NCBI RefSeq assembly: GCF_027942865.1 | Contig: NC_134527.1 | Span: 5,124,976-5,188,975 of the forward strand | Origin: Odontesthes bonariensis | Lineage: Eukaryota; Chordata; Actinopteri; Atheriniformes; Atherinopsidae | DNA length: 64,000 nt | Direction of reading: 5' to 3' | Shown: positions 679 to 64,000 of the stretch, piece after piece | How positions within the stretch are numbered: the first letter of the stretch is position 1 | Layout of the letters: the number at the start of each line of letters is the position of its first letter | Translations under genes and position numbers: made by a program | The notes under the pieces: model-generated | What the model saw: only the letters and a program-made list of their open reading frames with translations | Told to the model about the DNA's origin: nothing | The model's database searches: none

Positions 679-7069
<6,391 letters not shown>

Positions 7070-9800: not shown

Positions 9801-9968
9801 TTAAGGCCGGGAAAGCATACACGTCTTTTTTCATGTATAAGGTTGTTTTGCACCAATTATTGACCTCTGCGCCAATTAAATTAATTATAATAGACACGTG
9901 AGAGTGTCGTCATGTTCCTCGTGTCATTGTTTTGAAGTTAAGTTACATCGAAAAAAAAAAAAAAAGTT

Positions 9969-10409
9969 AAGGACTTTCAGTGGGAAGACATTTCAGCCGG
10001 GAGCGATTGTGAGGAGTTTCTTGGCTTTGATGATGCTGAAGAACGTGCTGACCCAATTGATGGAGATTTATGGCCAGCGCATATGTTTGAGGATGATTTT
10101 GAAGGGTTTGAATGTGAGTGGAAGACTGACAATTACCACCGTAATCGACGGAGAGATTTCAACCGCACACCAGCGGTGGAAGTCGATTTACCTGCAGATG
10201 CCACACCGTTGCAGGCATTTAATCATATTTTTACTGAGGAGCTTTGGGCGCATCTCGTTTCTGAGATGAATAGATACAGTGAGCAGGTACTTCAGACTCC
10301 TGCTCGAGCAAAGATGGCGAGGTGGTCACACTGTGCCGGAGATGAAAAGGTTTATTGGAATGTGTATGGGCTCCTTGTGCTGCCAGTACGAAGAGATTAC
10401 TGGCGATAA
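9969..10409 (+). pseudogene. piggyBac transposase remnant (start of DDE_Tnp_1_7 domain), truncated
   Basis: The frame is open from just after a poly-A run at about 9950-9965 to the stop at 10407-10409. An acidic leader (DFQWEDIS, CEEFLGFDD) is followed by TPAVEVDLPADATPLQAF, IFTEELWAHLVSEMNRYSEQ and a final GLLVLPVRRDYW. This matches the entry of the piggyBac transposase domain (DxP-DATPLQxF, FTEELW, ETNRYAEQ, RDYW in family members). It stops before the catalytic aspartates, and the stretch before RDYW is shortened, so it cannot be an active transposase. Confidence 0.75.
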
Positions 10410-15832: not shown

Positions 15833-18800
15833 TCATATTCTCTGGATCTTGTCAGCAACTACCATGGGGTTTTCTTTGCGAATCTTGGCGGCGGCTTCAG
15901 ATTTGTAGTCGTACGGACAGTTGTGCTTATCAGAGTAACGGTGAATTCCACAGAAAAGGTTCCCACAGCGACAGTCGAAACCTGAAATGCCAAAACAGAG
16001 GATAGAGTGGTGTCAAAAGTGAAAGCTAATCTTTTTTGTGTTGGTATTCAATCTGGCGTTACGCAACGACGAGTTCTATTCAAGCGCAAGCAACCCGCTG
16101 CTCTACGGCGGCCAGCGAGATGCGTCATCGCTTTCACCCAGAGATCTAACCCGTTGAGTTCTGCAGGATGGTTTCAGCTGAAACTTTCCATAGAAATGAG
16201 CTGCTCCTCCAGAAAGAAATGACTGAAACGGATCACGTGACCGACTTGTTTATATGTACCGCTCTCAGTTTCCTGAGTCAGCTGCAAAACCCGGAGCCCA
16301 AAACACTTGTAAAACGTGACAGCAGCAGCATGGTGTATGAACTACGAAGAAGACGCTAATTGACAGCTAACTGTTAGCTGCAGACTGATGCAGACATAAG
16401 AGCCAAACGTTAGCCAACTGTTTAGCCAAACGTTAGCCAACTGCTTAGCCAAACGTTAGCCAACTGTTTAGCCAAACGTTAGCCAACTGTTTAGCCAAAC
16501 GTTAGCCAACTGTTTAGCCAAACGTTAGCCAACTGTTTAGCCAAACGTTAGCCAACTGTTTAGCCAAACGTTAGCCAACTGTTTAGCCAAACGTTAGCCA
16601 ACTCAGAGCCAAACGTTAGCCAACTCAGAGCCAAACGTTAGCCAACTCAGAGCCAATCGTTAGCCAACTCAGAGCCAATCGTTAGCCAACTCAGAGCCAA
16701 TCGTTAGCCAACTCAGAGCCAAACGTTAGCCAACTGTTTAGCCAAACGTTAGCCAACTGTTTAGCCAAACGTTAGCCAACTGTTTAGCCAAACGTTAGCC
16801 AACTCAGAGCCAAACGTTAGCCAACTCAGAGCCAATCGTTAGCCAACTCAGAGCCAATCGTTAGCCAACTCAGAGCCAATCGTTAGCCAACTCAGAGCCA
16901 AACGTTAGCCAACTGTTTAGCCAAACGTTAGCCAACTGTTTAGCCAAACGTTAGCCAACTGTTTAGCCAAACGTTAGCCAACTCAGAGCCAAACGTTAGC
17001 CAACTCAGAGCCAATCGTTAGCCAACTCAGAGCCAATCGTTAGCCAACTCAGAGCCAATCGTTAGCCAACTCAGAGCCAAACGTTAGCCAACTCAGAGCC
17101 AAACGTTAGCCAACTCAGAGCCAAACGTTAGCCAACTCAGAGCCAAACGTTAGCCAACTCAGAGCCAAACGTTAGCCAACTCAGAGCCAAACGTTAGCCA
17201 ACTCAGAGCCAAACGTTAGCCAAACGTCAGAGCCAAACGTTAGCCAAACGTCAGAGCCAAACGTTAGCCAAACGTCAGCCAAACGTTAGCCAACCGAGAG
17301 CCAACTGTTAGCTTTTATGTCTGCATCAGTCATACGGTTAAGACCAGAAGAAGAAGAAAAAATGTGGTACACTAAATATTAGTTGAAGTGGAACTTCTGG
17401 AGCTCTTACCTGTAAGGCCAAGCTTTTTGCGACACATAGAGCAACGGTTCTTCTTGGGTTTTGGGGGCTCTGGGTCTTTGACCTCCTCACTGCCAGCAGT
17501 GGAGGGACTGGAGACTGAGAAAGTGGGCTGACTCACCACTGGGGACACACCAGGAAAATTGTACATTTGCCTTCCTTTTCTAAAATTAAATGGACTGATT
17601 TAAAATGATCCGTCGGAAAAATTGTTTTTAACCAACTTAATGCATTTAATCATCAGTAAAACCATGGCACCGAGGTCCCAAAACATCTTCTTTATATGTC
17701 AAAGAATGGAGACATTCTGGTTTTGTTACACTACACGGGCTGCACCCGAATAAACTAATAACTCAATCTACATCGGTAAATAAGTCCATTTTAGCCCACC
17801 TGGCTCTGTGATTTCTACTTTGCTCCCCGATGCTCCTTTCTCCTCCGAGGAAATACTCATTTCAGTCATCTGTTGTGTGACGGAGGCGGCACTTGAAATC
17901 CCACTGTGAGGAATAAAAGGAAAGAGATGACTAAGCAAGAACATTTAAAGGAATAATTCACTCCTGAATGACTGTATTCCACACCCAAACTTCTTCCCAC
18001 AGAATGAGAACAACGGCATCTTACAGCGCAATTTCTGCTGATAAATATTTTCATTCATTGCTATTCAAGTTCCAACAGAAGGCCTGTCAGCTGCTGTGTG
18101 GTCTTAGCTCTATGAAGCTATTTTAGGTCAGGCAAAGAGGAGCTGAAAATGGGTCTAAAAGACTGCATCTTGACCAGGGCTGTGTTCGAAACCGCATACT
18201 TTTTAAAAAATACATAAATATATATATTTTTTTAAATTAATTAGACACTTATTATTATTAGTTAGTAGTATTTTTATTAGAATTGGTATTATTATTGTTG
18301 TTGTTAATATACAATCATTGTAAATATTAACAACATTTGAAACATTTTCAGGCGAGAAAGTAGTCGTTTAGATCCCACGAATTCGGTGCTACTAAAGCTA
18401 GCCGCAGTGAGCAACGCACTTCCGGTTATTTTCACAAAATAAAATACCCGTTGCCTTTTATCACAGGGAAAGCCGTTACGGTACAATTGGTGCTTTTGTT
18501 TTGAAAACAGGAAGTGAACCTACCCTCGTTGTAGCTAGCTTGAAACTGTCGTTTTGACAGGAAATGACGATTGGCAACGTCACGTTACGTTGCATCTTGG
18601 GTAGTTTGAGTATGAGTAGTAACCTCATGATGCATACCCAACATTTCGGAGAATCTAGTATGCATCCGGGAACTTCTCGCTTACTCAAACTCGCATACTA
18701 ACTCAAAAAGTTAGTATGAGTAGTAGGAGAAGTATGCGGTTTCGAACACAGCCCAGGTGTGTTTGTATTAAGTAGAGAAGGACTGATATATTGTGCGTGT

Positions 18801-27175: not shown

Positions 27176-30100
27176 ATGGCTCTTCGAGTGACAAGAGTAA
27201 GTATTTATAGCTTTAATTTATTTAGCGTTTTGCTTTGGAAAGCTGTTTCAAGAAAATGTGCATTTAATTGACTTATTATTTATTATTAAAGCTAGTTAAA
27301 TGTCCTCGTGTCTATCTTGTGTGGAGGTGGGGTGGCTGTTTCCTTCCGTGATATAAGTTCCTATGAAAGCTCGTTATCCTGGCATAAATTGATATGCACA
27401 ATGACTCAAATGCTTTAATTTTTTTTGCTTTTTGCAGAATCGCTTGGCCTCTACCAGGGCTGACCTCGGTGGAAAGGCATGCTCCATGAACGGGCCCACG
27501 CAGAAACCTCGAGCTGCTCTTGGCGAAATCGGAAACATCGCAGCGAACAAAGAGGCTCAGAAAAAGGCAAGTTTGTGCTTTAAAACGTGCAACTTTATGA
27601 GCTGTTTAAAGTGTAATTTAAGAAAAAAGCCTACCATGCATTTCGATTTGAGTTGCATTTAATGTTCAAAATGGCTTCTGTCCTCAGCTTACGAATACTT
27701 TGTGCATATATTTTTACATTTATTACTCTATTTTTGTTTTTATGGCAACAAACAGACCAGGCCAAATTCCTCGTGATGTAAAAATTACTTGGCAATAAAA
27801 CCTTTTCTGATTGTAAAATAGTAGGTCTGAAGATAGGGAGGTGCCCCAAATGTCCACCTAAACAGATTGTTTGCAGTATAAGCTGCATGAGCTAGCTTTT
27901 CAATTAGATTTTTTTAAATAATGACCATCTTGTGCAGAGTAGTAAAGTAAGCTGCCACTTCACGTGTTTTATGAGCCCAAGCCCAAAGGTTTTAACTGTC
28001 TTTAACACAATCTGCTGCATGAATCTGTGCTTTCTTAAACTAGTCTTGGACTGAACAACTGCTGTACATTTTGCTATGTAAATAACATCACTTTTGACGT
28101 GGAACTTGCATAGTTCTTAGATATATTCACTCTATTTTTATTTATTTTTAAATTTTATAGACTGTCAAGACGGAGGCTGCAAAGAAGACTAAAGTCGTCC
28201 CCAAAATTGAAAAGGCAGTGCAACCAATCTCTAATGTTGTCTCGGTTAAACCAGTTCCCGAGGTGCAGGTGAGTTGTAAACGAGCTGAAATGTTGTCCGG
28301 GCGTGTTGCGTCTGGTTACTTAAACATGTTTGCGTTGCCACAGTTGCCGGCTCAGCCTGAACCAGCGTCCCCCACTCCAATGGAGACGTCCGGCTGTGAG
28401 CCCGCCGACCTCTGCCAAGCGTTTTCAGATGTCATCCTGAACACGGCTATCAGGGATGTGGACGCTGATGACTACGACAACCCCATGCTCTGCAGTGAAT
28501 ATGTGAAGGATATCTACAAGTATCTCCGTCAACTCGAGGTGAGCGACTGGAACGGGGGGGGTGGAAGTTTGTAATTCCTGGTTTTGTCTAGGGGTGGGTA
28601 TTGGCAAAGAAGTCACGATTCACATGCCACAATGCAATACTATCACGATACTTGACTTATTGTGATATTTTCACTGAACATACTTTAAAAAATTAAAATC
28701 CAGCCATTACCAGTGGCTGACTGGCTGTGTATGATCTGGATGGTGTCTTCAATTGATACATAAATCAATTCATAACTGTATTTATTGAAATAACTTTTGG
28801 AGGTATTTCCATTAAAACAAATATTACTATTACTGGACACACTCATCACAAAAAGTGCATAGGATTTATAAAACTTAAAATAACAAAATGGGGATGATCA
28901 GTACAGACAGAAAGTGCATAGGCTTTATAAAACTATAAAAAAAATAAATATTGCAAACATCCCTTGCAGCGAAATGCATCAATTGCATGTGTCCTGTCAT
29001 TAAAGGCATAAAAAGCCCCCCCAAAAAATATCGATACTTGGCATCAAGAATCGATGCAGTAGATTACGAAAATTAGAATCGCAATGCATCGTCGTGACGA
29101 TTATTTTGCACACCCCTAGTTTTGTCTGACAACCAATCTGACTGACGGACCTCTCGCCTCAGGTTGAGCAGGATATCAAGCCCAACTATCTGGAAAGTCG
29201 GGAGATCACCGGTAACATGAGGGCCATCCTCATTGACTGGCTGGTGCAAGTGAACCTCAAGTTCCGTCTCCTGCAGGAGACGATGTACATGACTGTAGGA
29301 ATAATCGACCGCTTTCTTCAGGTGAGTATAATCACCTTTGTGTTGCCCTGCAGCTTTCAGCCGCCCTCTTTGTTTAATTTTTCTCTCACTTTCCCCTCTG
29401 ACAGGATCACCCAGTCCCCAAGAAGCAGCTGCAGCTGGTTGGAGTGACCGCCATGTTCCTTGCCTCCAAATACGAGGAAATGTATCCTCCAGAGATCTCA
29501 GACTTTGCCTATGTGACGGATCGGGCCTACACTACAGCTCAAATCAGAGACATGGAGATGACCATCCTGCGGGTGCTCAAGTTTCAGCTCGGCCGCCCCC
29601 TTCCCTTGCAGTTCCTCAGAAGGGCCTCAAAGATCTACGAGGTTTGTAGCGGGTTTTATTTCATCTGAACGTGCACCTCAGTGACTGCTACTCCTGCTAA
29701 TGACATCAGCCGTGACTTTCCTTTCTCCAGGTAACTGCTGAGCAGCACACCCTGGCAAAATACCTCCTCGAGCTCACCATGGTTGACTACGAGATGGTTC
29801 ATTTCCCACCCTCTATGGTGGCGAGTGCTTCTTTGGCACTTGCCCTGAAAATCCTGGATGCAGGTGAATGGGTGAGTATGGATCTAAAGATTCAGGCCAC
29901 ATTTACACATAGCCGGGTATTTAGAGAAACAAATATTTCCCCCCCCCCCTCCGTTTTCAATAACATCGTGCACACAACAACGCTTCAAAAAACTTGTCAT
30001 TTACATCAACCTGCATAAATGCGCCATAACTATGCCAAACCTATTGGCGGCAGTGTAGGGAAAGGAATAAAGCCAATCAAAATCCTCATAATCGAGGACT

Positions 30101-35469: not shown

Positions 35470-37919
35470 CATCCTCGCGTACAGTTTGACTGGTGAGCAG
35501 GACGCTATCTTCCCCTCACGATCAAGGAGTTGAGTGTTTGTTGAAGTGTTGCAGACGGTAGACTTTTCTTTTTAAAGACGCCGCATTGCTGCGTTGTTCC
35601 AGAGCACGAAAACATTTCAAAGCTCGAAAACTTGCTGAAACTGCACATTGAAAAACAATTCATGGAAAGCTGCATAGACATAGGATGCGTTCATCTAATC
35701 ATTTAGTAATGGTTGTGGAGCTTTTTTTTCCATGTTCCTCAAAGTCCTCAAAGTTCAGATGGTGATTGTGGGATGGGTATGAACAGCAAAAATGCATGCA
35801 CCAGGGTGGAAGTTACATCCAGTAATACTAATTAAAGCAGCAGTGGGAGGCCAGGACCTTATTCCACTTTATTGCCTGGGAGAGACTAAATATGTTTTGG
35901 GTCGGCAGAAAGGAATTATCATCTTGTTTCAGCTCTCAGAGATTATTTCTGGCATCCGAGCAGCACCCCTGGATCAGCTCAGAGTGGTGTGGTTGCTGAG
36001 AGGCATGGGCTCTTTTGTTGTTCGCTTCCCCCAACTGAGAGTTTTCCACTGGCCCGCTCTCCACAAAATTCGAAAGGATTAATAAGTTTGGTCCAGCAGA
36101 CTTTTTACAGGAAGGAACCAGCCAATTGCATTCTTTGCAAAGAGGGACTTTCTTGCTGGCAAGAGTGTTTTTTTGAGGCACTGAGGTCAGATTTGCATTT
36201 CAATGAAGGGGTCTAATATCGAACAGATGCATCCTAAACTTGTGCAGACAAAACCGATGACTAATCGCCAATGTGTTTGTGGTTGTCCCCATTGTCAGCT
36301 GTTTTCTTTGTGTTTGCAATCGATCAATCATCTGTCTTCTTCCAACCCAGCTCGCTAACTACCAAGCTGCCTGTAAAAAATGCAATCCACTCTGAAAACA
36401 ACAGCAATGGGAGCATCCACACTGCTAACTAACCAATAAAACCAGCTAAAAATGGCCGTTTTTTAACCCCGTTTTTAGAAAGACACGGTGGCGTCTTTGT
36501 CTGATTTTTTTTTTCAAGAGAGAACCAATAAAAACTGAGCTTCGACAACGGATACGAACCCCTGTTGTCATTGTCCCCCTCATTTTCTAGCCATGTAATG
36601 TTTTTAATATTGCCAAAATTTGAAGGTAAACCCTCTATTAAAGCAGCAGTTTGGGGGAGCTCATTTACATCTTGGCTCCTCAGATGGAAACACCAGCAGA
36701 GAAAGATCCTTAAAAAATTGTTCTGGGTCCTCGGGGAGATCCCTAAAAGTTGGATGTAGGATGATTTGGCAGCGTTTGCCAAATCAGTTGAGAGTCTTTC
36801 AGACCTTTCGTCTTCTGAGAATGAAAATTGTCCCTGTGAACACAGCATTATAGCAAAAGTTCTGAGCAAACTAATGGACTCATATGAAACAAGCCTTTGT
36901 CTAGTATTTTACGATATCCTCCTTTCTTCGCCAGAGGTTTCTTGTATCCAACTTTACATTTCATCATCCCGACCGAGGCCCCTGGATTCAACCTAACGTC
37001 ATTGTGCAAGAAAAGGCATCACCAAAGGGTCGTAAAGTAAACGCTGCCATGCACAGTGATTATCAGAAGTTATATCACACTGTTTTACTTGGAGGAAACA
37101 ATGCCAGTGTTTGTGTTTTGATTTACGAGATCAGTAATAATGAGAACAAGACGGCCCAGGAAACTGGTACTTACTTTGTCCTGTGATTAGTTTTTCTTTC
37201 TTAAATACATTACTCACTTCAACGATGACAAGACTTATGTGCTGGTTTATGAGCCATGTAATTTGATGATGTTGTTTTTAGGTCAAATATGTTGACAGTT
37301 TTTTTTTCTTGTACATTTTTGTCTAATAATGTTGGAGGTAATTATTGTAGGGGGGGAAAAAACAACAACTTTACAGCTGTGACATGTTTTTTCCACATAA
37401 ATCAGCAGTGGCACCCTTAAGTTTAAAGTGTGGTAAACACTCAGCATGACTGATCTTTAAAGATATCTTCTGGTATCTACTGTAATCCGACCTGTCTGGT
37501 GACTCAGCCTGCCTGGAAAACGTCAGGTCTGATCTGAGATAAATCCTTACAGAGTGTTTGGGAAGAGGCAAAGGGAGACTCGGCAGCTCCCGCTGACACG
37601 TTGTAAATCAACCTCTGGGGTCACTTGGCCATCTCTGTTGTCCGCGTTCGACACCGGGATTGACAGCGAACATCCGGTGCTGGGCTTTTGGACCTCTGCT
37701 GCTTGTTTGCACACAATCTGTGCACGATAAAAACACTTCAACTAAACAGAAATATACCAAACTTGTCCAAATATATAGATTGATGGATGTGCATTTTCTC
37801 CAGCAACACTAAAAATTTGAAACAACAATAAATGACGGTCCAAATATATTCATAACGACCTTCAAACTTTGTTTTGGTGCCCAACTTCATAAGTTATTGT
37901 AACATATTTGACTTTAAAA
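35470..37919. other. Intergenic, no gene recognised
   Basis: No conserved domain, RNA gene or clear transposon end was seen. The 146-codon minus frame at 36429-36869 has no recognisable motif and plus-strand frames overlap it. Confidence 0.35.
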
Positions 37920-38480
37920 TAGGGCTGGGCAACGATTAAAATGTTAAATCTAATTAATCACATGATTTCCCTGATTAATCACGATTAATCGCATTTGTAC
38001 GTAAAATCCAAAAATGAATCCAAAAGTAGTGTATAGCTTTTAGCATTTAGCTTTATTTTAAATGTGCTGCCATATGAATGAAAGTGCCATAACATTTGTT
38101 GTGCAAACACACTTTTAACATCAGCATCTTTCTGTAGTTTTTATGTAGAAGCCTCGCTCCACTGTCTGTTTCCTTGAATGACTTGCTGCTATCAGTTGTG
38201 TGTTTTGCCTTTAAGTGATATTTTAGACTGGAACTACTACGCTGAGAAGACAATTCAACTTGGCAGTGTTTACAGATGACTTTGGTTCTGTCCACTCCGC
38301 CGTCTGGAAGAACTTTAAAATGAAAATGGCCGAGTAAAAGTTCCGTACCCTTCTCCATGTTTGGTGGATCCGCCGATTACTTTTCCTGTTCCACAGCAGA
38401 CAGCAACAGACTTTTACAAAATAAAAGCCTGTGAGCAACAGACTTTTACAAAATAAAAGCCTGGGAGCAACAAACTTTTA
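37920..38480 (-). mobile_element. hAT-like element copy 2 with ATG-started BED zinc-finger ORF
   Basis: The left terminus TAGGGCTGGGCAACG starts at 37920. The minus frame 38053-38358 (101 codons) begins with a true ATG (MEKGTELLLGHFHF) and holds a BED finger: VICKHC, then YHLKAKH (C-x2-C...H-x4-H). The region 38396-38470 contains three copies of AGCAACAGACTTTTACAA-type sequence. The right end is degraded and no transposase follows. Confidence 0.8.
38053..38358 (-). CDS. BED-type zinc-finger mini-ORF of hAT-like element (101 aa)
   Basis: BED fingers are DNA-binding domains of hAT transposases and ZBED genes. Here only this domain remains, with Cys pair CKHC near residue 34 and His pair in HLKAKH near residue 56, followed by an unrelated tail ending IHMAAHLK. 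This is the only copy in the window that keeps an ATG. The tandem copies at 57.3 and 60.6 kb have GTG there and the 54.0-kb copy has CTG. Expression is unknown, and decay of the start codon argues against selection. Confidence 0.45.
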   Translation of the reverse strand: MEKGTELLLGHFHFKVLPDGGVDRTKVICKHCQVELSSQRSSSSLKYHLKAKHTTDSSKSFKETDSGARLLHKNYRKMLMLKVCLHNKCYGTFIHMAAHLK

Positions 38481-53223: not shown

Positions 53224-53864
53224 AATAGTCGATTATAGTACTTCAGTACCCCGGTTTTTCATAATTATAGCCCACAAGATGTTTTGTCAGAGTAAGCATT
53301 ACATTTTTCCCGTGCTGGATATCTGCCACCGCCTTTAGTGTAATTGTTTTTCCAACCAGAAGCTTACTCCCAAATGATAAAAAGGTGCAGACATTCCCAG
53401 AAACGCATCTGACTCATCCTGTGATCTGCAATTATAGCCCTTATTCTTTTATGGTAAGGCTCTGCAAACCATCCACACACACACACATGCATATATAAAC
53501 AACACCAAATATGCTGTATAAATCCATAGTGTCAACACACATTCATTCCAGCACAGCCAGGTCATCGTTTTGCAGCGATTGTGCTTGACTTCACCTCATG
53601 CTCCAACTCATCTACACCAGGCAAAGACCTCACCCGCCATCAGAATGATTCATTACTCTACAGTCTTTTAGCAAACCTTTTTCATCCAAGGCCACATACA
53701 GGTGAGGAACACACTGGGTAGCAATGAAAGGTTTAACATTTTGCCCAAGGATACTTCGACATGTTGCCTGAGGGAAGTTTGGGAACCTCAACTTAAAGGA
53801 CGAGCCCGACCTGCAGCAGATTCTATCCTCATGATGTGCAACTGACTAGATTAAACATATCAAC
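52528..53864. other. Intergenic DNA left of the TRIM array
   Basis: Apart from the second 97-bp direct repeat copy and a short (CA)n near 53475, nothing could be assigned. Confidence 0.35.
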
Positions 53865-54653
53865 TAGGGCTGGGCAACCATTAAAATGTTTAATCTTATT
53901 AATCACATGATTTCCCTGATTAATCACGATTAATCGCATTTGTATGCAAAATCCAAAAATGAATCCAAAAGTAGCGTATAGCTTTTAGCATTTAGCTTTA
54001 TTTTAAATGTGCTGCCATATGAATGAAAGTGCCATAACATTTGTTGTGCAAACACACTTTTAACATCAGCATCTTTCTGTAGTTTTTATGTAGAAGCCTC
54101 GCTCCACTGTCTGTTTCCTTGAATGACTTGCTGCTATCAGTTGTGTGTTTTGCCTTTAAGTGATATTTTAGACTGGAACTACTACGCTGAGAAGACAATT
54201 CAACTTGGCAGTGTTTACAGATGACTTTGGTTCTGTCGACTCCGCCGTCTGGAAGAACTTTAAAATGAAAATGGCCGAGTAAAAGTTCCGTACCCTTCTC
54301 CAGGTTTGGTGGATCCGCCGATTACTTTCTTTTCCTGTTCCACAGCAGACAGCAGCAGACTTTTACAAAATAAAAGCCTGTGAGCAACAGACTTTTACAA
54401 TAATAAAATAAATAATAAAACAGGGGGGGGTCTGTGGCGTAGTGGGTTGAGCAGGCGCCCCATGTACAGAGGCTATAGTCCTCGCTGCAGCTGGCCCACA
54501 TCGGACGCCCCTGTGCTGCATGTTGTTCCCCCTCTCTCTGCCCCCTGGTTCCTGTCTCTCTGAACTTTCCATTAAAGGCACAAAAGCCCCAACAAAAATG
54601 TTTCTTTTAAAAATGCGTTAATGTGTATCGGCGTTAAATAACTAGCGAGTTAA
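53865..54653 (-). mobile_element. hAT-like element in array unit 1, carrying a SINE
   Basis: The left end TAGGGCTGGGCAACC is at 53865. The BED frame on the minus strand is open, but the ATG of the 38-kb copy reads CTG here. A tRNA-derived SINE (54425-54612) is inserted before the right end (ATCGGCGTTAAATAACTAGC). The same nested structure is present in units 2 and 3, so element and SINE were in place before amplification. Confidence 0.82.
54425..54612 (+). mobile_element. tRNA-derived SINE (array unit 1)
   Basis: The head CTGTGGCGTAGTGGGTTGAG carries an A-box-like motif and GGCTATAGTCCTCGCTG follows in the B-box region. The tail CTGTCTCTCTGAACTTTCC then AAAGGCACAAAAGCCCC is that of a common percomorph SINE. 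Copies lie at 57697-57890 and 60973-61168. Confidence 0.75.
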
Positions 54654-54751
54654 CAGCTGCATTGATTCACTGAAACATGTTCAAACATGAATATAAACAC
54701 AGAATATGAGACAGAAACGGAGCTTTAAAGTGAATATTTGGCCTGAGCGCC

Positions 54752-54757
54752 TTTATT
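54752..54757 (-). terminator. Poly(A) signal of TRIM gene 1
   Basis: AATAAA on the minus strand about 370 bases after the stop codon. The same hexamer lies at the equivalent place in units 2 (58027-58032) and 3 (61305-61310). A nearer AATAAA overlaps the region just behind the stop. Confidence 0.5.
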
Positions 54758-55129
54758 CTCAAACACAGCCTGAACAAATGAACAAAACCAAAGTCAGCGT
54801 AACTCCAGGATTATTTTCCCATTTCCACAGTGATGAGATCTGAAAAGAGTCTGTGATAAAGGAAGGTCTGCTGACTCCTCTGCTGGGCTCCATGAAGTGG
54901 AAGAGAAACAACAACATACAGACACACCGACACCAGGATCCCACTGATGTTTAGAGCTCAGAGAAGTTTAGATTTTAATATTTCTGTGAATCAAACTCCT
55001 CATCAGCAGTGATATCCTCCATGGCTGCACAGACACAGGAAACAGCAGCAAATAAACAGCAGAACAGCAGCAGAGACATCCCAGCAACCAGCTGTCAGCA
55101 ACAAGCTGACTAAACACATTTATTTCACT

Positions 55130-56800
55130 TTACACAAACTCTGCTGAGGCTCCATAAGAAGAATAATAAAGCCTGATCCCAGCATAGAGAGGCTGAGTGA
55201 ATGTGGTCTGCACTCTGTGGAGGAGAGTCATGGTTCCAGAGACGCTGTAGAAGGACAGAATACCTGCTCTGTGATCCAGGTACACTCCCACTCTGGAGGC
55301 CCGAGGACCTGAGATGGAGGTTTCCTTGTTGTTGTACCTAAATGTAGAACTGTGTGGGCCACAATCTAATGACCAAGATTTGTCATTAAATCCAAATCCA
55401 CATTCATTCCACCCTCCTGCTCTGCGGATGTTCTTGTATGCGACTGCTACACCAACTCCTCTCCCTCCCATCTCCACCTCCCAGTAACAACGTCCAGTCA
55501 GACTCTCTCTGCTCAGGACCTGCTGACATCCAGTGAATCTGTCTGGATGATCAGAATAAGACTGAGGCTGTTCCATTCTTGTCACTTTTCTGTTCCCCTC
55601 TGACAGTAACAGATATCTGTGTGCTGTGTTTGGATCCAGTGTGATTTCACATGAATATCTTAAGAATCCAGCTCTGCTCGTTGGTTCTGGCTGTGGCAGT
55701 AAAACATCCACGTCAGCGACTCTCAGTGAGATGTTGGTCCATTCCTCTCTCAGGATGTCCTGTAGTTTCTCTCTGAGCTCTGACACAGCTGCTGTCACAT
55801 CCTCAAAGTGCCTCAGAGGACGGATCTGGATGCTGGATGAGTGTGTAGCCCCCCTGAGTGCTGCCACTGAGGGGCAGCTGTGCAGAAACTGGCTGTGATC
55901 CTCTGTGTGTGAGAGCTGCTTCAGCTCAGCATCTTTCCTCTTCAGCTCAGTGATCTCCTGCTCCAGCTTCTCCTGAAGCTCTTTGACTCGACTCCCTTCG
56001 GCTTCCTGCTGGGATCTGATCTGCTGCTTCACATCAGAGCTTCTTTTCTGGAGGAGACGGATCAGCTGGCTGAAGATCTTCTGGCTGTGCTCCTCTGTTT
56101 TATCAGCAGACCGATGGATGGCCTCCAGCTCCTGCTGAAGCAGCTTCACATCTTTCTCTGCGTCCTGGATTCTCTGCTGGATCTGCTGCCGACTCCCCTC
56201 CAGCTCTCTCTGCCTCTCAGTCCTTTCTGCTGCAGCTGACACTGTGTCGTGGCCTTTATGATCATCCATTAAGCAGAGATAACAGATGCACTTCTGATCG
56301 GTACGGCAGAAAATCTTCATCACCTCACCGTGATCAGAGCAGATGTTCTCCTGGAGCTTGTTGGAGGGCTCCACCAGCTTGTGTTTCCTGAATGGAGCCA
56401 CATCATAATGAGGCTGAAGGTGTTCCTCACAGTAAGAGGCCAGGCAGGATAAACAGGACTTAACGGCTTTCAGCTTCCTCCCAGAGCAGACATCACAGGC
56501 CACATCTTCAGCTCCAGCATAGCAGTGATCAGCAGGAGCAGCACGGAGTCCAGTCTTCTTCAGCTGCTCCACTAAATCAGCTAACATGGTGTTTTTCCCC
56601 AGGACAGGCCTCGGTATGAAGGTTTTCCTGCACTGAGGGCAGCTGTGGATCCCCTTCTGATCCTCTCCATCCCAGTGGCCTTTAATACAGCTCATGCAGT
56701 AGCTGTGTCCACAGGAAATAGTCACCGGATCCTTCAGCAGATCCAGGCAGATCGAACAGGAGAAGCGTTCTCGGTCCAGCTGAACTCCTTTCTGCGCCAT
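55130..56800 (-). CDS. finTRIM-type E3 ubiquitin ligase, array gene 1 (556 aa, single exon)
   Basis: RING, two B-boxes, coiled coil and PRY-SPRY in one open frame. RING: C15, C18, C30, H32, C35, C38, C54, C57 (complete C3HC4), so E3 activity is expected. B-box 1 about 102-140 and B-box 2 about 154-184 (CSDH...CRTDQKC...HKGH). Coiled coil about 190-305. PRY-SPRY about 375-550, with LDPNTAHRYLLLSEGNRKV, GRCYWEVE and YLDHRAGILSFYSV. This order and sequence fit the fish-specific finTRIM group related to TRIM25, mostly linked to antiviral defence (family knowledge). Compared with genes 2 and 3 it differs at H229, C309 and E341 outside the SPRY. One extra base near the stop changes the end from AELCKVK to AEFV. 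No intron interrupts the coding sequence. Confidence 0.92.
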   Translation of the reverse strand: MAQKGVQLDRERFSCSICLDLLKDPVTISCGHSYCMSCIKGHWDGEDQKGIHSCPQCRKTFIPRPVLGKNTMLADLVEQLKKTGLRAAPADHCYAGAEDVACDVCSGRKLKAVKSCLSCLASYCEEHLQPHYDVAPFRKHKLVEPSNKLQENICSDHGEVMKIFCRTDQKCICYLCLMDDHKGHDTVSAAAERTERQRELEGSRQQIQQRIQDAEKDVKLLQQELEAIHRSADKTEEHSQKIFSQLIRLLQKRSSDVKQQIRSQQEAEGSRVKELQEKLEQEITELKRKDAELKQLSHTEDHSQFLHSCPSVAALRGATHSSSIQIRPLRHFEDVTAAVSELREKLQDILREEWTNISLRVADVDVLLPQPEPTSRAGFLRYSCEITLDPNTAHRYLLLSEGNRKVTRMEQPQSYSDHPDRFTGCQQVLSRESLTGRCYWEVEMGGRGVGVAVAYKNIRRAGGWNECGFGFNDKSWSLDCGPHSSTFRYNNKETSISGPRASRVGVYLDHRAGILSFYSVSGTMTLLHRVQTTFTQPLYAGIRLYYSSYGASAEFV

Positions 56801-56827
56801 TTCTCCTCTCAGATCAGCGACTCAGTG

Positions 56828-56839
56828 AGTTTCACTTCC
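56828..56839 (-). promoter_or_regulatory. ETS/IRF composite (ISRE-like) site upstream of TRIM gene 1
   Basis: GGAAGTGAAACT on the minus strand, 28-39 bases before the ATG. It fits GGAANNGAAA exactly and the interferon-stimulated response element with one mismatch. Identical sites lie at 60101-60112 and 63373-63384. Position in promoter or 5' UTR is unknown. Confidence 0.5.
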
Positions 56840-57151
56840 TGAAAGCTGAAACTTATCTGAGCTCTGAGCTGTAAATGACGTGTCTGTGCAGATAACAGAG
56901 CCTATCAGCTCCCCTTCTGTTGGTTACACCCATCATGAGCTGCAGATCTGAAGGGGAGGGAACCAGGAAACATGTGGGCCGAGCGGAGCCGCTGTGTGTG
57001 AGCAGGAAGTGAATAAAAGCTGTGTCACAGCAGACTTCAAGGTGGAAATATGGGTCGATTCTTCTTTTAATCCCTTTGGAAAGAAGCTTCACTTTCACAG
57101 TAAATGCAGCAGAGTTTTGAGCCTGAAAAATCAGGAAGAACATTTAGAAAC

Positions 57152-57935
57152 TAGGGCCGGGCAACGATTAAAACTTTTAATCTAATTAATCACATGATTT
57201 CCCTGATTAATCACGATTAATCGTATTTGTACGCAAAATCCAAAAGTAGTGTATAGCTTTTAGCATTTAGCTTTATTTTAAATGTGCTGCCATATGAATG
57301 AAAGTGCCATAACATTTGCTGTGCAAACACACTTTTAACATCAGCATCTTTCTGTAGTTTTTATGTAGAAGCCTCGCTCCACTGTCTGTTTCCTTGAATG
57401 ACTTGCTGCTATCAGTTGTGTGTTTTGCCTTTAAGTGATATTTTAGACTGGAACTACTACGCTGAGAAGACAATTCAACTTGGCAGTGTTTACAGATGAC
57501 TTTGGTTCTGTCGACTCCGCCGTCTGGAAGAACTTTAAAATGAAAATGGCCGAGTAAAAGTTCCGTACCCTTCTCCACGTTTGGTGGATCCGCCGATTAC
57601 TTTCTTTTCCTGTTCCACAGCAGACGGCAACAGACTTTTACAAAATAAAAGCCTGTGAGCAGCAGACTTTTACAATAATAAAATAAATAATAAACAGGGG
57701 TGGTCTGTGGCGTAGTGGGTTGAGCAGGCGCCCCATGTACAGAGGCTACAGTCCTCGCTGCAGCTGGCCCCGCATCGGACGGCCCTGTGCTGCGTGTTGT
57801 TCCCCTTCTCTCTGCCCCCTGCTTCCTGTCTCTCTGAACCTTCCATTAAAGGCACAAAAGCCCCAACAAAAATGTTTCTTTTAAAAATGCGTTCATGTGT
57901 ATCGGCGTTAAATAACTAGCGAGTTAACAGCTGCA
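57152..57935 (-). mobile_element. hAT-like element in array unit 2, carrying a SINE
   Basis: The left end TAGGGCCGGGCAACG is at 57152. The BED frame 57273-57578 is open but starts with GTG, and one residue differs (HSKCYG for HNKCYG). The SINE is inserted at 57697-57890 as in unit 1. Confidence 0.85.
57697..57890 (+). mobile_element. tRNA-derived SINE (array unit 2)
   Basis: Same insertion point and sequence as in units 1 and 3, with minor changes (GGCTACAGTCCTCGCTG). Confidence 0.75.
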
Positions 57936-58393
57936 TTGATTCACTGAAACATGGTCAAACATGAATATAAACACAGAATATGAGACAGAAACGGAGCTTT
58001 AAAGTGAATATTTGGCCTGAGCGCCTTTATTCTCAAACACAGCCTGAACAAATGAACAAAACCAAAGTCAGCGTAACTCCAGGATTATTTTCCCATTTCC
58101 ACAGTGATGAGATCTGAAAAGAGTCTGTGATAAAGGAAGGTCTGCTGACTCCTCTGCTGGGCTCCATGAAGTGGAAGAGAAACAACAACATACAGACACA
58201 CCGACACCAGGATCCCACTGATGTTTAGAGCTCAGAGAAGTTTAGATTTTAATATTTCTGTGAATCAAACTCCTCATCAGCAGTGATATCCTCCATGGCT
58301 GCACAGACACAGGAAACAGCAGCAAATAAACAGCAGAACAGCAGCAGAGACATCCCAGCAACCAGCTGTCAGCAACAAGCTGACTAAACACAT

Positions 58394-60073
58394 TTATTTC
58401 ACTTTACACAACTCTGCTGAGGATCCATAAGAATCATAATTAAGCCAGATCCCAGCATAGAGCATCTGAGTGAATGTGGTCTGGACTCTGTGGAGGAGAG
58501 TCATGGTTCCAGAGACGCTGTAGAAGGACAGAATACCTGCTCTGTGATCCAGGTACACTCCCACTCTGGAGGCCCGGGGACCTGAGATGGAGGTTTTAAT
58601 GTTGTTGTACATAAATGTATAACTGTTTGAGGAACAATCTAATGCCCAAGATTTGTCATTAAATCCAAATCCACATTCAGTCCATCCTCCTGTTCTGCTG
58701 ATGTTCTTGTATGCGACTGCTACACCAACATATTCTCCTCTCATCTCCACCTCCCAGTAACAACGTCCAGTCAGACTCTCTCTGCTCAGGACCTGAGACC
58801 TGTTAGTGAATCTGTCTGGATAATCAGAATAAGACTGAAGATGTTTCATATATGTCACTTTTCTGTTCCCCTCTGACAGTAACAGATATCTGTGTGCTGT
58901 GTTTGGATCCAGTGTGATTTCACATGAATATCTTAAGAATCCAGCTCTGCTCGTTGGTTCTGGCTGTGGCAGTAAAACATCCACGTCAGCGACTCTCAGT
59001 GAGATGTTGGTCCATTCCTCTCTCAGGATGTCCTGTAGTTTCTCTCTGAGCTTTGACACAGCTGCTGTCACATCCTCAAAGTGCCTCAGAGGACGGATCT
59101 GGATGCTGGATGAGTGTGTAGCCCCCCTGAGTGCTGCCACTGAGGGCCAGCTGTGCAGAAACTGGCTGTGATCCTCTGTGTGTGAGAGCTGCTTCAGCTC
59201 AGCATCTTTCCTCTTCAGCTCAGTGATCTCCTGCTCCAGCTTCTCCTGAAGCTCTTTGACTCGACTCCCTTCGGCTTCCTGCTGGGATCTGATCTGCTGC
59301 TTCACATCAGAGCTTCTTTTCTGGAGGAGACGGATCAGCTGGCTGAAGATCTTCTGGCTGTGCTCCTCTGTTTTATCAGCAGAGCGATCGATGGCCTCCA
59401 GCTCCTGCTGAAGCAGCTTCACATCTTTCTCTGCGTCCTGGATTCTCTGCTGGATCTGCTGCCGACTCCCCTCCAGCTCTCTCTGCCTCTCAGTCCTTTC
59501 TGCTGCAGCTGACACTGTGTCGTGGCCTTTATGATCATCCATTAAGCAGAGATAACAGATGCACTTCTGATCGGTACGGCAGAAAATCTTCATCACCTCA
59601 CCGTGATCAGAGCAGATGTTCTCCTGGAGCTTGTTGGAGGGCTCCACCAGCTTGTGTTTCCTGAATGGAGCCACATCATAATGAGGCTGAAGGTGTTCCT
59701 CACAGTAAGAGGCCAGGCAGGATAAACAGGACTTAACGGCTTTCAGCTTCCTCCCAGAGCAGACATCACAGGCCACATCTTCAGCTCCAGCATAGCAGTG
59801 ATCAGCAGGAGCAGCACGGAGTCCAGTCTTCTTCAGCTGCTCCACTAAATCAGCTAACATGGTGTTTTTCCCCAGGACAGGCCTCGGTATGAAGGTTTTC
59901 CTGCACTGAGGGCAGCTGTGGATCCCCTTCTGATCCTCTCCATCCCAGTGGCCTTTAATACAGCTCATGCAGTAGCTGTGTCCACAGGAAATAGTCACCG
60001 GATCCTTCAGCAGATCCAGGCAGATCGAACAGGAGAAGCGTTCTCGGTCCAGCTGAACTCCTTTCTGCGCCAT
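58394..60073 (-). CDS. finTRIM-type E3 ubiquitin ligase, array gene 2 (559 aa, single exon)
   Basis: Same domain plan as gene 1 and all RING and B-box metal ligands kept. It has D229, W309 and K341, as gene 3 does. Residues 1-444 read the same as gene 3. From 445 on, the SPRY differs from both neighbours: RGEYVG at 445-450, SRTGGWTEC at 459-467, ALDCSSNSY at 477-485, and LYAGIWLNYDSYGSS near the end. It ends AELCKVK. Upstream sequence, 3' UTR and AATAAA signal match those of the other genes. Confidence 0.92.
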   Translation of the reverse strand: MAQKGVQLDRERFSCSICLDLLKDPVTISCGHSYCMSCIKGHWDGEDQKGIHSCPQCRKTFIPRPVLGKNTMLADLVEQLKKTGLRAAPADHCYAGAEDVACDVCSGRKLKAVKSCLSCLASYCEEHLQPHYDVAPFRKHKLVEPSNKLQENICSDHGEVMKIFCRTDQKCICYLCLMDDHKGHDTVSAAAERTERQRELEGSRQQIQQRIQDAEKDVKLLQQELEAIDRSADKTEEHSQKIFSQLIRLLQKRSSDVKQQIRSQQEAEGSRVKELQEKLEQEITELKRKDAELKQLSHTEDHSQFLHSWPSVAALRGATHSSSIQIRPLRHFEDVTAAVSKLREKLQDILREEWTNISLRVADVDVLLPQPEPTSRAGFLRYSCEITLDPNTAHRYLLLSEGNRKVTYMKHLQSYSDYPDRFTNRSQVLSRESLTGRCYWEVEMRGEYVGVAVAYKNISRTGGWTECGFGFNDKSWALDCSSNSYTFMYNNIKTSISGPRASRVGVYLDHRAGILSFYSVSGTMTLLHRVQTTFTQMLYAGIWLNYDSYGSSAELCKVK

Positions 60074-60100
60074 TTCTCCTCTCAGATCAGCGACTCAGTG

Positions 60101-60112
60101 AGTTTCACTTCC
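60101..60112 (-). promoter_or_regulatory. ETS/IRF composite (ISRE-like) site upstream of TRIM gene 2
   Basis: Same GGAAGTGAAACT at the same distance from the ATG as in unit 1. Confidence 0.5.
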
Positions 60113-60424
60113 TGAAAGCTGAAACTTATCTGAGCTCTGAGCTGTAAATGACGTGTCTGTGCAGATAACAGAGCCTATCAGCTCCCCTTCTGTTGGTTAC
60201 ACCCATCATGAGCTGCAGATCTGAAGGGGAGGGAACCAGGAAACATGTGGGCCGAGCGGAGCCGCTGTGTGTGAGCAGGAAGTGAATAAAAGCTGTGTCA
60301 CAGCAGACTTCAAGGTGGAAATATGGGTCGATTCTTCTTTTAATCCCTTTGGAAAGAAGCTTCACTTTCACAGTAAATGCAGCAGAGTTTTGAGCCTGAA
60401 AAATCAGGAAGAACATTTAGAAAC

Positions 60425-61211
60425 TAGGGCCGGGCAACGATTAAAACTTTTAATCTAATTAATCACATGATTTCCCTGATTAATCACGATTAATCGTATT
60501 TGTACGCAAAAATTTATCCAAAAGTAGTGTATAGCTTTTAGCATTTAGTTTTATTTTAAATGTGCTGCCATATGAATGAAAGTGCCATAACATTTGTTGT
60601 GCAAACACACTTTTAACATCAGCATCTTTCTGTAGTTTTTATGTAGAAGCCTCGCTCCACTGTCTGTTTCCTTGAATGACTTGCTGCTATCAGTTGTGTG
60701 TTTTGCCTTTAAGTGATATTTTAGACTGGAACTACTACGCTGAGAAGACAATTCAACTTGGCAGTGTTTACAGATGACTTTGGTTCTGTCGACTCCGCCG
60801 TCTGGAAGAACTTTAAAATGAAAATGGCCGAGTAAAAGTTCCGTACCCTTCTCCACGTTTGGTGGATCCGCCGATTACTTTCTTTTCCTGTTCCACAGCA
60901 GACGGCAACAGACTTTTACAAAATAAAAGCCTGTGAGCAGCAGACTTTTACAATAATAAAATAAATAATAAACAGGGGTGGTCTGTGGCGTAGTGGGTTG
61001 AGCAGGCGCCCCATGTACAGAGGCTATAGTCCTCGCTGCAGCTGGCCCCGCATCGGACGGCCCTGTGCTGCGTGTTGTTCCCCTTCTCTCTGCCCCCTGC
61101 TTCCTGTCTCTCTGAACCTTCCATTAAAGGCACAAAAGCCCCAACAAAAATGTTTCTTTTAAAAATGCGTTCATGTGTATCGGCGTTAAATAACTAGCGA
61201 GTTAACAGCTG
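60425..61211 (-). mobile_element. hAT-like element in array unit 3, carrying a SINE
   Basis: The left end is at 60425. The BED frame 60551-60856 is open with a GTG in place of ATG. The SINE lies at 60973-61168. Confidence 0.85.
60973..61168 (+). mobile_element. tRNA-derived SINE (array unit 3)
   Basis: Same insertion and flanks as unit 2, with GGCTATAGTCCTCGCTG as in unit 1. Confidence 0.75.
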
Positions 61212-61671
61212 CATTGATTCACTGAAACATGGTCAAACATGAATATAAACACAGAATATGAGACAGAAACGGAGCTTTAAAGTGAATATTTGGCCTGAGC
61301 GCCTTTATTCTCAAACACAGCCTGAACAAATGAACAAAACCAAAGTCAGCGTAACTCCAGGATTATTTTCCCATTTCCACAGTGATGAGATCTGAAAAGA
61401 GTCTGTGATAAAGGAAGGTCTGCTGACTCCTCTGCTGGGCTCCATGAAGTGGAAGAGAAACAACAACATACAGACACACCGACACCAGGATCCCACTGAT
61501 GTTTAGAGCTCAGAGAAGTTTAGATTTTAATATTTCTGTGAATCAAACTCCTCATCAGCAGTGATATCCTCCATGGCTGCACAGACACAGGAAACAGCAG
61601 CAAATAAACAGCAGAACAGCAGCAGAGACATCCCAGCAACCAGCTGTCAGCAACAAGCTGACTAAACACAT

Positions 61672-63345
61672 TTATTTCACTTTACACAACTCTGCTGAGG
61701 CTCCAGAATAAATCATCCTGATCCCAGCACAGAGCGGCTGAGTGAATGTGGTCTGCACTCTGTGGAGGAGAGTCATGGTTCCAGAGACGCTGTAGAAGGA
61801 CAGAATACCTGCTCTGTGATCCAGGTACACTCCCACTCTGGAGGCCAGAGGACCTGAGATGGAGGTTCCCTTGTTGTTGTACATAAATGTATACCTGCCT
61901 GAGTAACAATCTAATGACCAAGATTTGTCATTAAATCCAAATCCACATTCATACCCTCCTCCTGCTCTGCTGATGTTCTTGTATGCGACTGCTACAACAA
62001 CTCCTTTCTCTCCCATCTCCACCTCCCAGTAACAACGTCCAGTCAGACTCTCTCTGCTCAGGACCTGAGACCTGTTAGTGAATCTGTCTGGATAATCAGA
62101 ATAAGACTGAAGATGTTTCATATATGTCACTTTTCTGTTCCCCTCTGACAGTAACAGATATCTGTGTGCTGTGTTTGGATCCAGTGTGATTTCACATGAA
62201 TATCTTAAGAATCCAGCTCTGCTCGTTGGTTCTGGCTGTGGCAGTAAAACATCCACGTCAGCGACTCTCAGTGAGATGTTGGTCCATTCCTCTCTCAGGA
62301 TGTCCTGTAGTTTCTCTCTGAGCTTTGACACAGCTGCTGTCACATCCTCAAAGTGCCTCAGAGGACGGATCTGGATGCTGGATGAGTGTGTAGCCCCCCT
62401 GAGTGCTGCCACTGAGGGCCAGCTGTGCAGAAACTGGCTGTGATCCTCTGTGTGTGAGAGCTGCTTCAGCTCAGCATCTTTCCTCTTCAGCTCAGTGATC
62501 TCCTGCTCCAGCTTCTCCTGAAGCTCTTTGACTCGACTCCCTTCGGCTTCCTGCTGGGATCTGATCTGCTGCTTCACATCAGAGCTTCTTTTCTGGAGGA
62601 GACGGATCAGCTGGCTGAAGATCTTCTGGCTGTGCTCCTCTGTTTTATCAGCAGAGCGATCGATGGCCTCCAGCTCCTGCTGAAGCAGCTTCACATCTTT
62701 CTCTGCGTCCTGGATTCTCTGCTGGATCTGCTGCCGACTCCCCTCCAGCTCTCTCTGCCTCTCAGTCCTTTCTGCTGCAGCTGACACTGTGTCGTGGCCT
62801 TTATGATCATCCATTAAGCAGAGATAACAGATGCACTTCTGATCGGTACGGCAGAAAATCTTCATCACCTCACCGTGATCAGAGCAGATGTTCTCCTGGA
62901 GCTTGTTGGAGGGCTCCACCAGCTTGTGTTTCCTGAATGGAGCCACATCATAATGAGGCTGAAGGTGTTCCTCACAGTAAGAGGCCAGGCAGGATAAACA
63001 GGACTTAACGGCTTTCAGCTTCCTCCCAGAGCAGACATCACAGGCCACATCTTCAGCTCCAGCATAGCAGTGATCAGCAGGAGCAGCACGGAGTCCAGTC
63101 TTCTTCAGCTGCTCCACTAAATCAGCTAACATGGTGTTTTTCCCCAGGACAGGCCTCGGTATGAAGGTTTTCCTGCACTGAGGGCAGCTGTGGATCCCCT
63201 TCTGATCCTCTCCATCCCAGTGGCCTTTAATACAGCTCATGCAGTAGCTGTGTCCACAGGAAATAGTCACCGGATCCTTCAGCAGATCCAGGCAGATCGA
63301 ACAGGAGAAGCGTTCTCGGTCCAGCTGAACTCCTTTCTGCGCCAT
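61672..63345 (-). CDS. finTRIM-type E3 ubiquitin ligase, array gene 3 (557 aa, single exon)
   Basis: Complete RING, B-boxes, coiled coil and PRY-SPRY. The first 444 residues read the same as gene 2. Then the SPRY departs: GEKGVV at 445-450, SRAGGGYEC at 459-467, SLDCYSGRY at 477-485, L500 for R500, and LCAGIRMIYSGAS near the end, which is two residues shorter than gene 2. W464, kept in genes 1 and 2, is G here. It ends AELCKVK. A large number of changes in a stretch of about 110 codons, against none before it, is the main oddity. Confidence 0.92.
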   Translation of the reverse strand: MAQKGVQLDRERFSCSICLDLLKDPVTISCGHSYCMSCIKGHWDGEDQKGIHSCPQCRKTFIPRPVLGKNTMLADLVEQLKKTGLRAAPADHCYAGAEDVACDVCSGRKLKAVKSCLSCLASYCEEHLQPHYDVAPFRKHKLVEPSNKLQENICSDHGEVMKIFCRTDQKCICYLCLMDDHKGHDTVSAAAERTERQRELEGSRQQIQQRIQDAEKDVKLLQQELEAIDRSADKTEEHSQKIFSQLIRLLQKRSSDVKQQIRSQQEAEGSRVKELQEKLEQEITELKRKDAELKQLSHTEDHSQFLHSWPSVAALRGATHSSSIQIRPLRHFEDVTAAVSKLREKLQDILREEWTNISLRVADVDVLLPQPEPTSRAGFLRYSCEITLDPNTAHRYLLLSEGNRKVTYMKHLQSYSDYPDRFTNRSQVLSRESLTGRCYWEVEMGEKGVVVAVAYKNISRAGGGYECGFGFNDKSWSLDCYSGRYTFMYNNKGTSISGPLASRVGVYLDHRAGILSFYSVSGTMTLLHRVQTTFTQPLCAGIRMIYSGASAELCKVK

Positions 63346-63372
63346 TTCTCCTCTCAGATCAGCGACTCAGTG

Positions 63373-63384
63373 AGTTTCACTTCC
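63373..63384 (-). promoter_or_regulatory. ETS/IRF composite (ISRE-like) site upstream of TRIM gene 3
   Basis: Same GGAAGTGAAACT at the same distance from the ATG as in units 1 and 2. Confidence 0.5.
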
Positions 63385-63696
63385 TGAAAGCTGAAACTTA
63401 TCTGAGCTCTGAGCTGTAAATGACGTGTCTGTGCAGATAACAGAGCCTATCAGCTCCCCTTCTGTTGGTTACACCCATCATGAGCTGCAGATCTGAAGGG
63501 GAGGGAACCAGGAAACATGTGGGCCGAGCGGAGCCGCTGTGTGTGAGCAGGAAGTGAATAAAAGCTGTGTCACAGCAGACTTCAAGGTGGAAATATGGGT
63601 CGATTCTTCTTTTAATCCCTTTGGAAAGAAGCTTCACTTTCACAGTAAATGCAGCAGAGTTTTGAGCCTGAAAAATCAGGAAGAACATTTAGAAAC

Positions 63697-64000
63697 TAGG
63701 GCCGGGCAACGATTAAAACTTTTAATCTAATTAATCACATGATTTCCCTGATTAATCACGATTAATCGTATTTGTACGCAAAAATTTATCCAAAAGTAGT
63801 GTATAGCTTTTAGCATTTAGTTTTATTTTAAATGTGCTGCCATATGAATGAAAGTGCCATAACATTTGTTGTGCAAACACACTTTTAACATCAGCATCTT
63901 TCTGTAGTTTTTATGTAGAAGCCTCGCTCCACTGTCTGTTTCCTTGAATGACTTGCTGCTATCAGTTGTGTGTTTTGCCTTTAAGTGATATTTTAGACTG
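63697..64000 (-). mobile_element. hAT-like element in array unit 4 (cut by window edge)
   Basis: It begins TAGGGCCGGGCAACG at 63697 and matches unit 3 to the last base of the window, within the BED frame. The spacing from unit 3 (3272 bp) shows that the array continues to the right. Confidence 0.85.

Follow-up and report, generated by a model that had tools for sequence, protein, structure and literature searches.

How can neighbouring genes be almost identical in their promoter region, effector domains and flanks, and yet differ clearly in the domain expected to bind the ligand? Three TRIM genes of the fish Odontesthes bonariensis raise this question. They lie in tandem in a window (the whole stretch of DNA analysed, 64,000 nucleotides) at positions 5,124,976 to 5,188,975 of contig NC_134527.1 (assembly GCF_027942865.1), which is C27:5124976-5188975 in our naming of the 945-Mb genome. 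In each gene a RING, a B-box and a coiled coil (the chassis) are followed by a B30.2 domain made up of PRY and SPRY (the head); coordinates are given in Table 1. With moderate confidence, we favour the explanation that recombination shares the chassis and flanks between the genes, while diversifying selection holds their B30.2 heads apart.

A sharp island of divergence in the B30.2 domain

Inspection of the letters alone (hereafter, the sequence-only reading) had suggested three near-identical TRIM genes that differ almost only at the SPRY end. Alignment of the whole units confirms this contrast, as comparison of codons 400-552 with the remainder of the unit gave Fisher p of 4e-17 to 8e-26 for the three pairs. 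The island is sharpest between units 2 and 3, where 1680 identical columns (348 noncoding bases and codons 1-444) are followed by 33 different sites out of 318 (codons 445-552) and then by another 674 identical columns; outside codons 400-552 only 3 of 2814 sites differ. At the protein level genes 2 and 3 are, as had been claimed, the same at residues 1-444 and then diverge, in 24 later alignment columns (22 substitutions and a two-residue gap). For genes 1 and 2 the differences at positions 229, 309 and 341 before codon 400 were correctly identified, but the estimate of about 25 later ones was too low: we count 32 columns, 29 of them substitutions and three C-terminal gap columns. The C-terminus of gene 1 differs because of a one-base insertion. 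The noncoding flanks are identical up to the genes, a point that the sequence-only reading had not made.

Within the B30.2 domain 34 of the 165 ungapped codons carry an amino-acid change. The changes cluster, as had been proposed: 21 steps between successive changed codons are of two codons or fewer (reached in 0 of 10000 shuffles), and no unchanged stretch is longer than 36 codons (26 of 10000 shuffles). It had also been suggested that SPRY loops vary while core strands are fixed, and the second half of this proposal stands. In one structure prediction of B30.2 (12 strands) the unchanged stretch 501-536 spans three predicted strands, so the fixed core in SPRY is, on this model, real. The placement of the changes in loops is not confirmed, as variable columns made up 20 of 86 loop and 14 of 79 strand positions (Fisher p 0.44) in a prediction of low confidence (mean predicted local distance difference test score, pLDDT, 52.5; 96 of 194 residues below 50).

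The differences of unit 1 outside the island are patchy. Relative to the other units there are none in the 348 bases of the 5' flank and four in the 1197 sites of codons 1-399; on the 3' side, units 1 and 2 show 0 of 439 differences in the near flank and 25 of 805 farther out (p 2e-5). A similar patchiness is seen within the island. The 15 changes that fall in codons 400-444 all belong to gene 1 alone, in contrast to codons 445-552, where 9 are private to gene 1 and 33 are not (p 6e-8). These patterns indicate that different parts of the units carry different histories, that is, they appear to be mosaics of parts of different age.

Selection on the heads

We found that most base changes in B30.2 replace an amino acid, in agreement with the sequence-only reading; on a star tree, replacement changes total 52.2 and silent changes 6.8. 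Neutral simulations expect 13.9-16.3 silent changes, and a silent count as low as the observed one was reached in 13, 6 and 2 of 2000 simulations for kappa of 1, 2 and 4, respectively. Over codons 386-552 the three pairs had ratios of replacement to silent substitution rates (dN/dS) of 2.0 (one-sided p 0.062), 3.3 (p 0.011) and 2.2 (p 0.078), the single-pair tests being weak. Together with the silent deficit, these ratios support the positive selection that the sequence-only reading had implied. Among 40 family members (see below), dN exceeds dS in 748 of 780 pairs for codons 400-552 versus 151 of 780 for codons 1-385. Diversifying selection in B30.2 is thus supported by the codon alignments; both positive selection and clustering of changes in this domain are published for finTRIMs (PMC2657112).

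Heads that look older than the shared parts

Silent sites give a measure of relative age. We counted strictly, using only codons that encode the same amino acid and summing over the three pairs. The array shows 8 silent differences in 261 sites for codons 400-552 versus 2 in 744 for codons 1-385, a difference reached in 16 of 5000 codon permutations; the silent sites of B30.2 are, thus, about ten times more diverged than those of the chassis. For genes 2 and 3 the contrast between the inside and the outside of the island had p 0.013 by strict counts and 6e-5 by path-averaged counts. Silent divergence in the array is raised around the selected block only, as the conversion-peak model expects.

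To set the array against its relatives, we searched the genome with the DNA of gene 2 and scored 40 of 482 candidates, which were the three array genes and 37 others (89-95% identity, nine contigs). In each of the 37 we found an open frame (550-615 codons), and the longest of these begin farther upstream. Twelve of the 40, the array's three included, lie on C27 (66 pairs). The mean difference within the array versus the C27 set was 0 vs 0.0505 for the 5' flank and 0 and 0.0048 vs 0.0235 and 0.0211 for the chassis, but 0.0741 vs 0.0753 for PRY and 0.0916 vs 0.0813 for SPRY. The B30.2 domains of the array are, therefore, about as distant as those of an average C27 pair, and it is the identity elsewhere in the unit that is extreme. 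Taken with the raised silent divergence, this family-typical distance makes the heads look older than the common chassis and flanks.

The array is not alone in this. On C27, 18 of 66 pairs combine 3' flanks no more than 0.5% apart with B30.2 domains that differ by 5% or more (both thresholds were our choice), which makes the array the sharpest case seen of a wider pattern. Chassis identity of at least 0.985 was found in 12 of the 780 pairs, and in seven of these (the three array pairs, L024/L025, L037/L038, L024/L032 and L024/L029) B30.2 identity is 0.90-0.94. We discarded the idea that duplication by itself leads to divergent B30.2 domains, since the other five close-chassis pairs have B30.2 identity of 0.98-1.00.

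Two side observations concern these relatives. Over about 430 bases, six C27 loci 0.4-1.8 Mb from the array (L023, L024, L025, L026, L028 and L032) have noncoding 3' flanks that match that of gene 2 at 98.8-99.8% identity; their 5' flanks are only 81-95% identical to that of gene 2. The loci L047 and L048 (contig C19, 93 kb apart) show no difference in codons 1-385 or 400-552, the coding regions compared, so that their heads are alike as well, which points to either a recent duplication or an assembly duplicate.

Probable exchange of the chassis, with selection on the heads

In the mechanism that we favour, the recently exchanged part would comprise the promoter region, RING, B-box, coiled coil and 3' flank, and the recognition domains would have separated earlier than this chassis. 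Unequal crossing-over, interlocus gene conversion between the tandem units, or both, would homogenise everything; exchange may have begun where transposon fragments at the edges of the units paired, and selection in favour of varied ligand binding would purge events that copy one B30.2 domain onto another. The outcome would be a single effector with several different sensors. The explanation draws on the sharp island, the identity of the flanks on both sides, the raised silent divergence of the island, dN/dS above 1, and a family-typical B30.2 distance next to identity specific to the array. The mosaic histories within the units also speak for it, as does a genome search with the SPRY of gene 2 (40 of 253 candidates scored), in which gene 2 itself ranked 1st and gene 3 just 31st.

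Several observations weigh against it. For an intact island to lie between identical stretches, two or more exchange events are needed, or else selection at the borders, and the 3' flank may in part be a constrained 3' untranslated region. Within codons 445-552 there is no mosaic order among the three genes (29 runs in 42 sites; 5315 of 10000 shuffles). In the genome search with the SPRY of gene 2, gene 1 ranked 3rd (93%), and over codons 400-552 genes 2 and 3 are mutually nearest or joint-nearest of 60 sequences (0.925), because they have the PRY in common; the heads are, thus, not wholly unrelated to the array. The five close-chassis pairs L047/L048, L052/L055, L049/L053, L042/L043 and L049/L056 lack an island. 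The silent test of the array rests on eight pairwise differences that are not independent between pairs, and the B30.2 silent excess was not significant in the 12 C27 genes (533 of 5000 permutations) or in all 40 (838 of 5000). The silent excess, then, appears to be specific to the array, with none established for the family at large. We dropped a family-wide excess as evidence: path-averaged counts gave it in 648 of 780 pairs, but the strict count fell short of significance, so codons with multiple hits had probably inflated the path-averaged count.

The data do not confidently decide between exchange with selection, replacement of heads and capture of alleles. In the second of these, units 2 and 3 would have arisen by a very recent duplication, and at least one B30.2 stretch would later have been replaced by conversion from the dispersed family. 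We consider this possible, if rather unlikely. A single event would account for the 100% identity on either side of the island between genes 2 and 3, and the supply of donors is large, as the 253 candidates of the SPRY search, 40 of them scored, indicate. Indeed, 15 of 174 run tests with an array B30.2 domain had p <= 0.01. These tests, however, ignore rate variation along the domain and its conserved core, one of the 15 is the pair of genes 2 and 3 and several are related loci, and we do not take them as proof. The best non-self match of the gene 2 SPRY among the 40 scored of 253 candidates is 95% over 296 of 333 bases, and the best B30.2 matches among 57 other sequences are 94.5% for gene 1, 92.5% for gene 2 and 92.2% for gene 3. 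No direct donor for the gene 2 SPRY was present among the 40 scored matches of a genome search made with that SPRY alone. A more elaborate form, which we regard as doubtful, is a germ-line cassette system, with the dispersed single-frame TRIM family as the pool of heads and recombination regularly joining heads to a homogenised chassis; new sensors would then arise by shuffling and not by point mutation.

Capture of alleles seems improbable to us. Here, old balanced B30.2 alleles of one recombining locus would have been put in tandem by unequal crossing-over between haplotypes, which would yield identical flanks and three about equidistant heads with interleaved site patterns. Alleles of one locus, however, fit poorly with gene 3 being just 31st of the 40 scored matches of the gene 2 SPRY, though gene 1 is third.

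The sequence-only reading had put the strength of the contrast down to the youth of the copies, with the loops of B30.2 diverging by point mutation under positive selection alone. The elevated dN/dS, the silent deficit against neutral simulation and the published selection on finTRIM B30.2 domains (PMC2657112) speak for it. We nevertheless rejected it as very improbable: the silent sites of the island are raised too, and selection alone could account for the island between genes 2 and 3 only with a dN about 83-fold the neutral rate outside. An assembly artefact (haplotypes or paralogues set in tandem, or chimeric polishing) is scarcely credible, for although assemblies tend to fail at long identical stretches, the array sits within a 33-Mb contig and has three open frames with distinct B30.2 domains, differences of its own in the flanks of unit 1, and clean unit edges.

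Identity of the three genes

All three genes are intact and intronless. Pfam domains PF15227 (zf-C3HC4_4), PF00643 (zf-B_box), PF25600 (TRIM_CC), PF13765 (PRY) and PF00622 (SPRY) score above cut-off in each, giving the order RING, B-box, coiled coil and PRY-SPRY of a TRIM (RBCC) protein with B30.2. finTRIMs have two B-boxes; Pfam gives one (150-188), and the Cys-rich stretch that precedes it has no Pfam match. Among solved structures, the best matches of the protein are TRIM25 (4cfg) and TRIM16 (7qs3, 6sjh), and those of B30.2 alone are, in order, TRIM16, TRIM16-like, stonustoxin and TRIM25; TRIM25 and TRIM16 are the closest relatives of finTRIMs outside the family. The N-terminus, too, presumably resembles that of finTRIMs. 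The six exons of zebrafish finTRIM genes are absent, both the array genes and 37 of 37 paralogues having a single frame, and one-exon finTRIM forms are reported for medaka (PMC2657112). The array probably consists of three finTRIM-type ubiquitin-ligase genes; from the domains alone we infer ligase activity and ligand binding of the three proteins. A single scan of IMG/VR turned up no relative of the protein, and nothing in Rfam reached the gathering threshold.

Organisation of the units

The units are arranged head-to-tail, about 3.27 kb each, and in each a BED zinc finger frame lies downstream of the gene; the copy in unit 2 (57273-57578), the one tested, matches PF02892. The homology of unit 1 starts at the edge of the ZBED transposon fragment. 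Since this fragment also occurs elsewhere in the window, pairing between transposon copies may have begun the duplication. Further copies, at 37913-38458 and 1-337, are 94-98% identical to those of the array. The stretch before the fragment we take to be like a short interspersed element, an unproven likeness, and ARAGORN found no transfer RNA. A fourth TRIM gene was found neither in the next 98 kb (tblastn, 1e-10, gene 2 protein) nor in the remaining window.

Upstream of each gene lies a copy of one site that matches what we take to be the consensus of the interferon-response element. The window has three matches, all at the three genes, with 0.63 expected and three reached in 4 of 100 shuffles. 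A putative element in all three promoters fits the published finding that viruses induce the expression of finTRIMs in trout (PMC2657112).

Table 1. Positions in the window of the array genes, their units and associated features
Feature	Positions	Strand	Remarks
TRIM gene 1 (g1)	55130..56800	minus	556 amino acids, single open reading frame; RING, B-box, coiled coil, PRY, SPRY
TRIM gene 2 (g2)	58394..60073	minus	559 amino acids, single open reading frame; architecture as gene 1
TRIM gene 3 (g3)	61672..63345	minus	557 amino acids, single open reading frame; architecture as gene 1
Divergent island, gene 1	55145..55603	minus	codons 400-552; 10.0% from unit 2, 8.6% from unit 3; outside 1.0-1.1%
Divergent island, gene 2	58418..58876	minus	codons 400-552; differs from gene 3 in codons 445-552 only (58418-58741)
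Divergent island, gene 3	61696..62148	minus	alignment codons 400-552
Tandem unit 1	53862..57148	minus	3287 bases; gene 1 with 5' flank, 3' flank and ZBED transposon fragment
Tandem unit 2	57149..60421	minus	3273 bases
Tandem unit 3	60422..63693	minus	3272 bases
ZBED (BED zinc finger) DNA transposon fragment, left edge of array	53862..54408	minus	
ZBED transposon fragment between genes 1 and 2	57143..57683	minus	
ZBED transposon fragment between genes 2 and 3	60416..60961	minus	
ZBED transposon fragment beyond gene 3	63688..64000	minus	cut off by window end
Interferon-response-element-like site, gene 1	56828..56839	minus	GGAAGTGAAACT; directly upstream of ATG; consensus match only
Interferon-response-element-like site, gene 2	60101..60112	minus	copy of the same site
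Interferon-response-element-like site, gene 3	63373..63384	minus	copy of the same site

Relation to known systems

Much of what the array combines is known already: selection and clusters in finTRIM B30.2 domains and one-exon finTRIM genes, conversion of B30.2 in NLR genes, and divergence peaks in opsins. What is new is the sharp combination of known elements and not a new kind of system. For the teleost finTRIM (ftr) family, one breakpoint each in B30.2 and in the RING/B-box region was found by the genetic algorithm for recombination detection (GARD) (van der Aa 2009, PMC2657112). The term gene conversion is absent from that text, and the combination seen in the array, a divergent B30.2 island between noncoding flanks that are identical, is not described in the part of it available to us. 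In the zebrafish NLR-B30.2 genes, for which gene conversion is treated in PMC4852459, conversion and positive selection act in B30.2, and effector and recognition domains are affected differently, as we propose for the array; unlike in the array, B30.2 conversion there is said to run across groups and NACHT conversion within groups, and the protein family is another one.

The human red/green opsins (PMC3924837) resemble the array, as we explain it, in that conversion keeps flank divergence low and a sharp block of high divergence stands at the selected site, but they differ mainly by two key residues, whereas the array differs by 34 binding-domain codons in three genes. Young primate TRIM genes (PMC3228819) are likewise recent duplicates with possible gene conversion and positive selection; conversion may be the reason that two entire copies there match perfectly over 6 kb, and a head-only island is not reported in the available excerpts. 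In those of PMC3944005 and PMC3137616 the sole mention of gene conversion is in the reference list, and in open-licence PubMed Central text, as far as it was accessible, we found no analysis of gene conversion in finTRIMs.

The units offer a clean natural test of recombination versus selection in an immune gene family. Since the three units have the same or almost the same flanks, promoter region and effector domains, a difference in binding or restriction could be assigned to B30.2, and for genes 2 and 3 to codons 445-552 alone. The array also cautions that dN/dS from such copies misleads as a clock of recent selection when the parts of one gene differ in age.

Other features of the window

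Elsewhere in the window, pieces of open frames at 28161-30018 resemble exons of a cyclin B gene, and an open frame at 9942-10409 we take to resemble a piece of a piggyBac-type transposase. A direct duplication of 178 bases (98% matches) lies at 4908-5270, and a tandem array of a 22-base unit, with about 41 copies, occupies 16399-17312.

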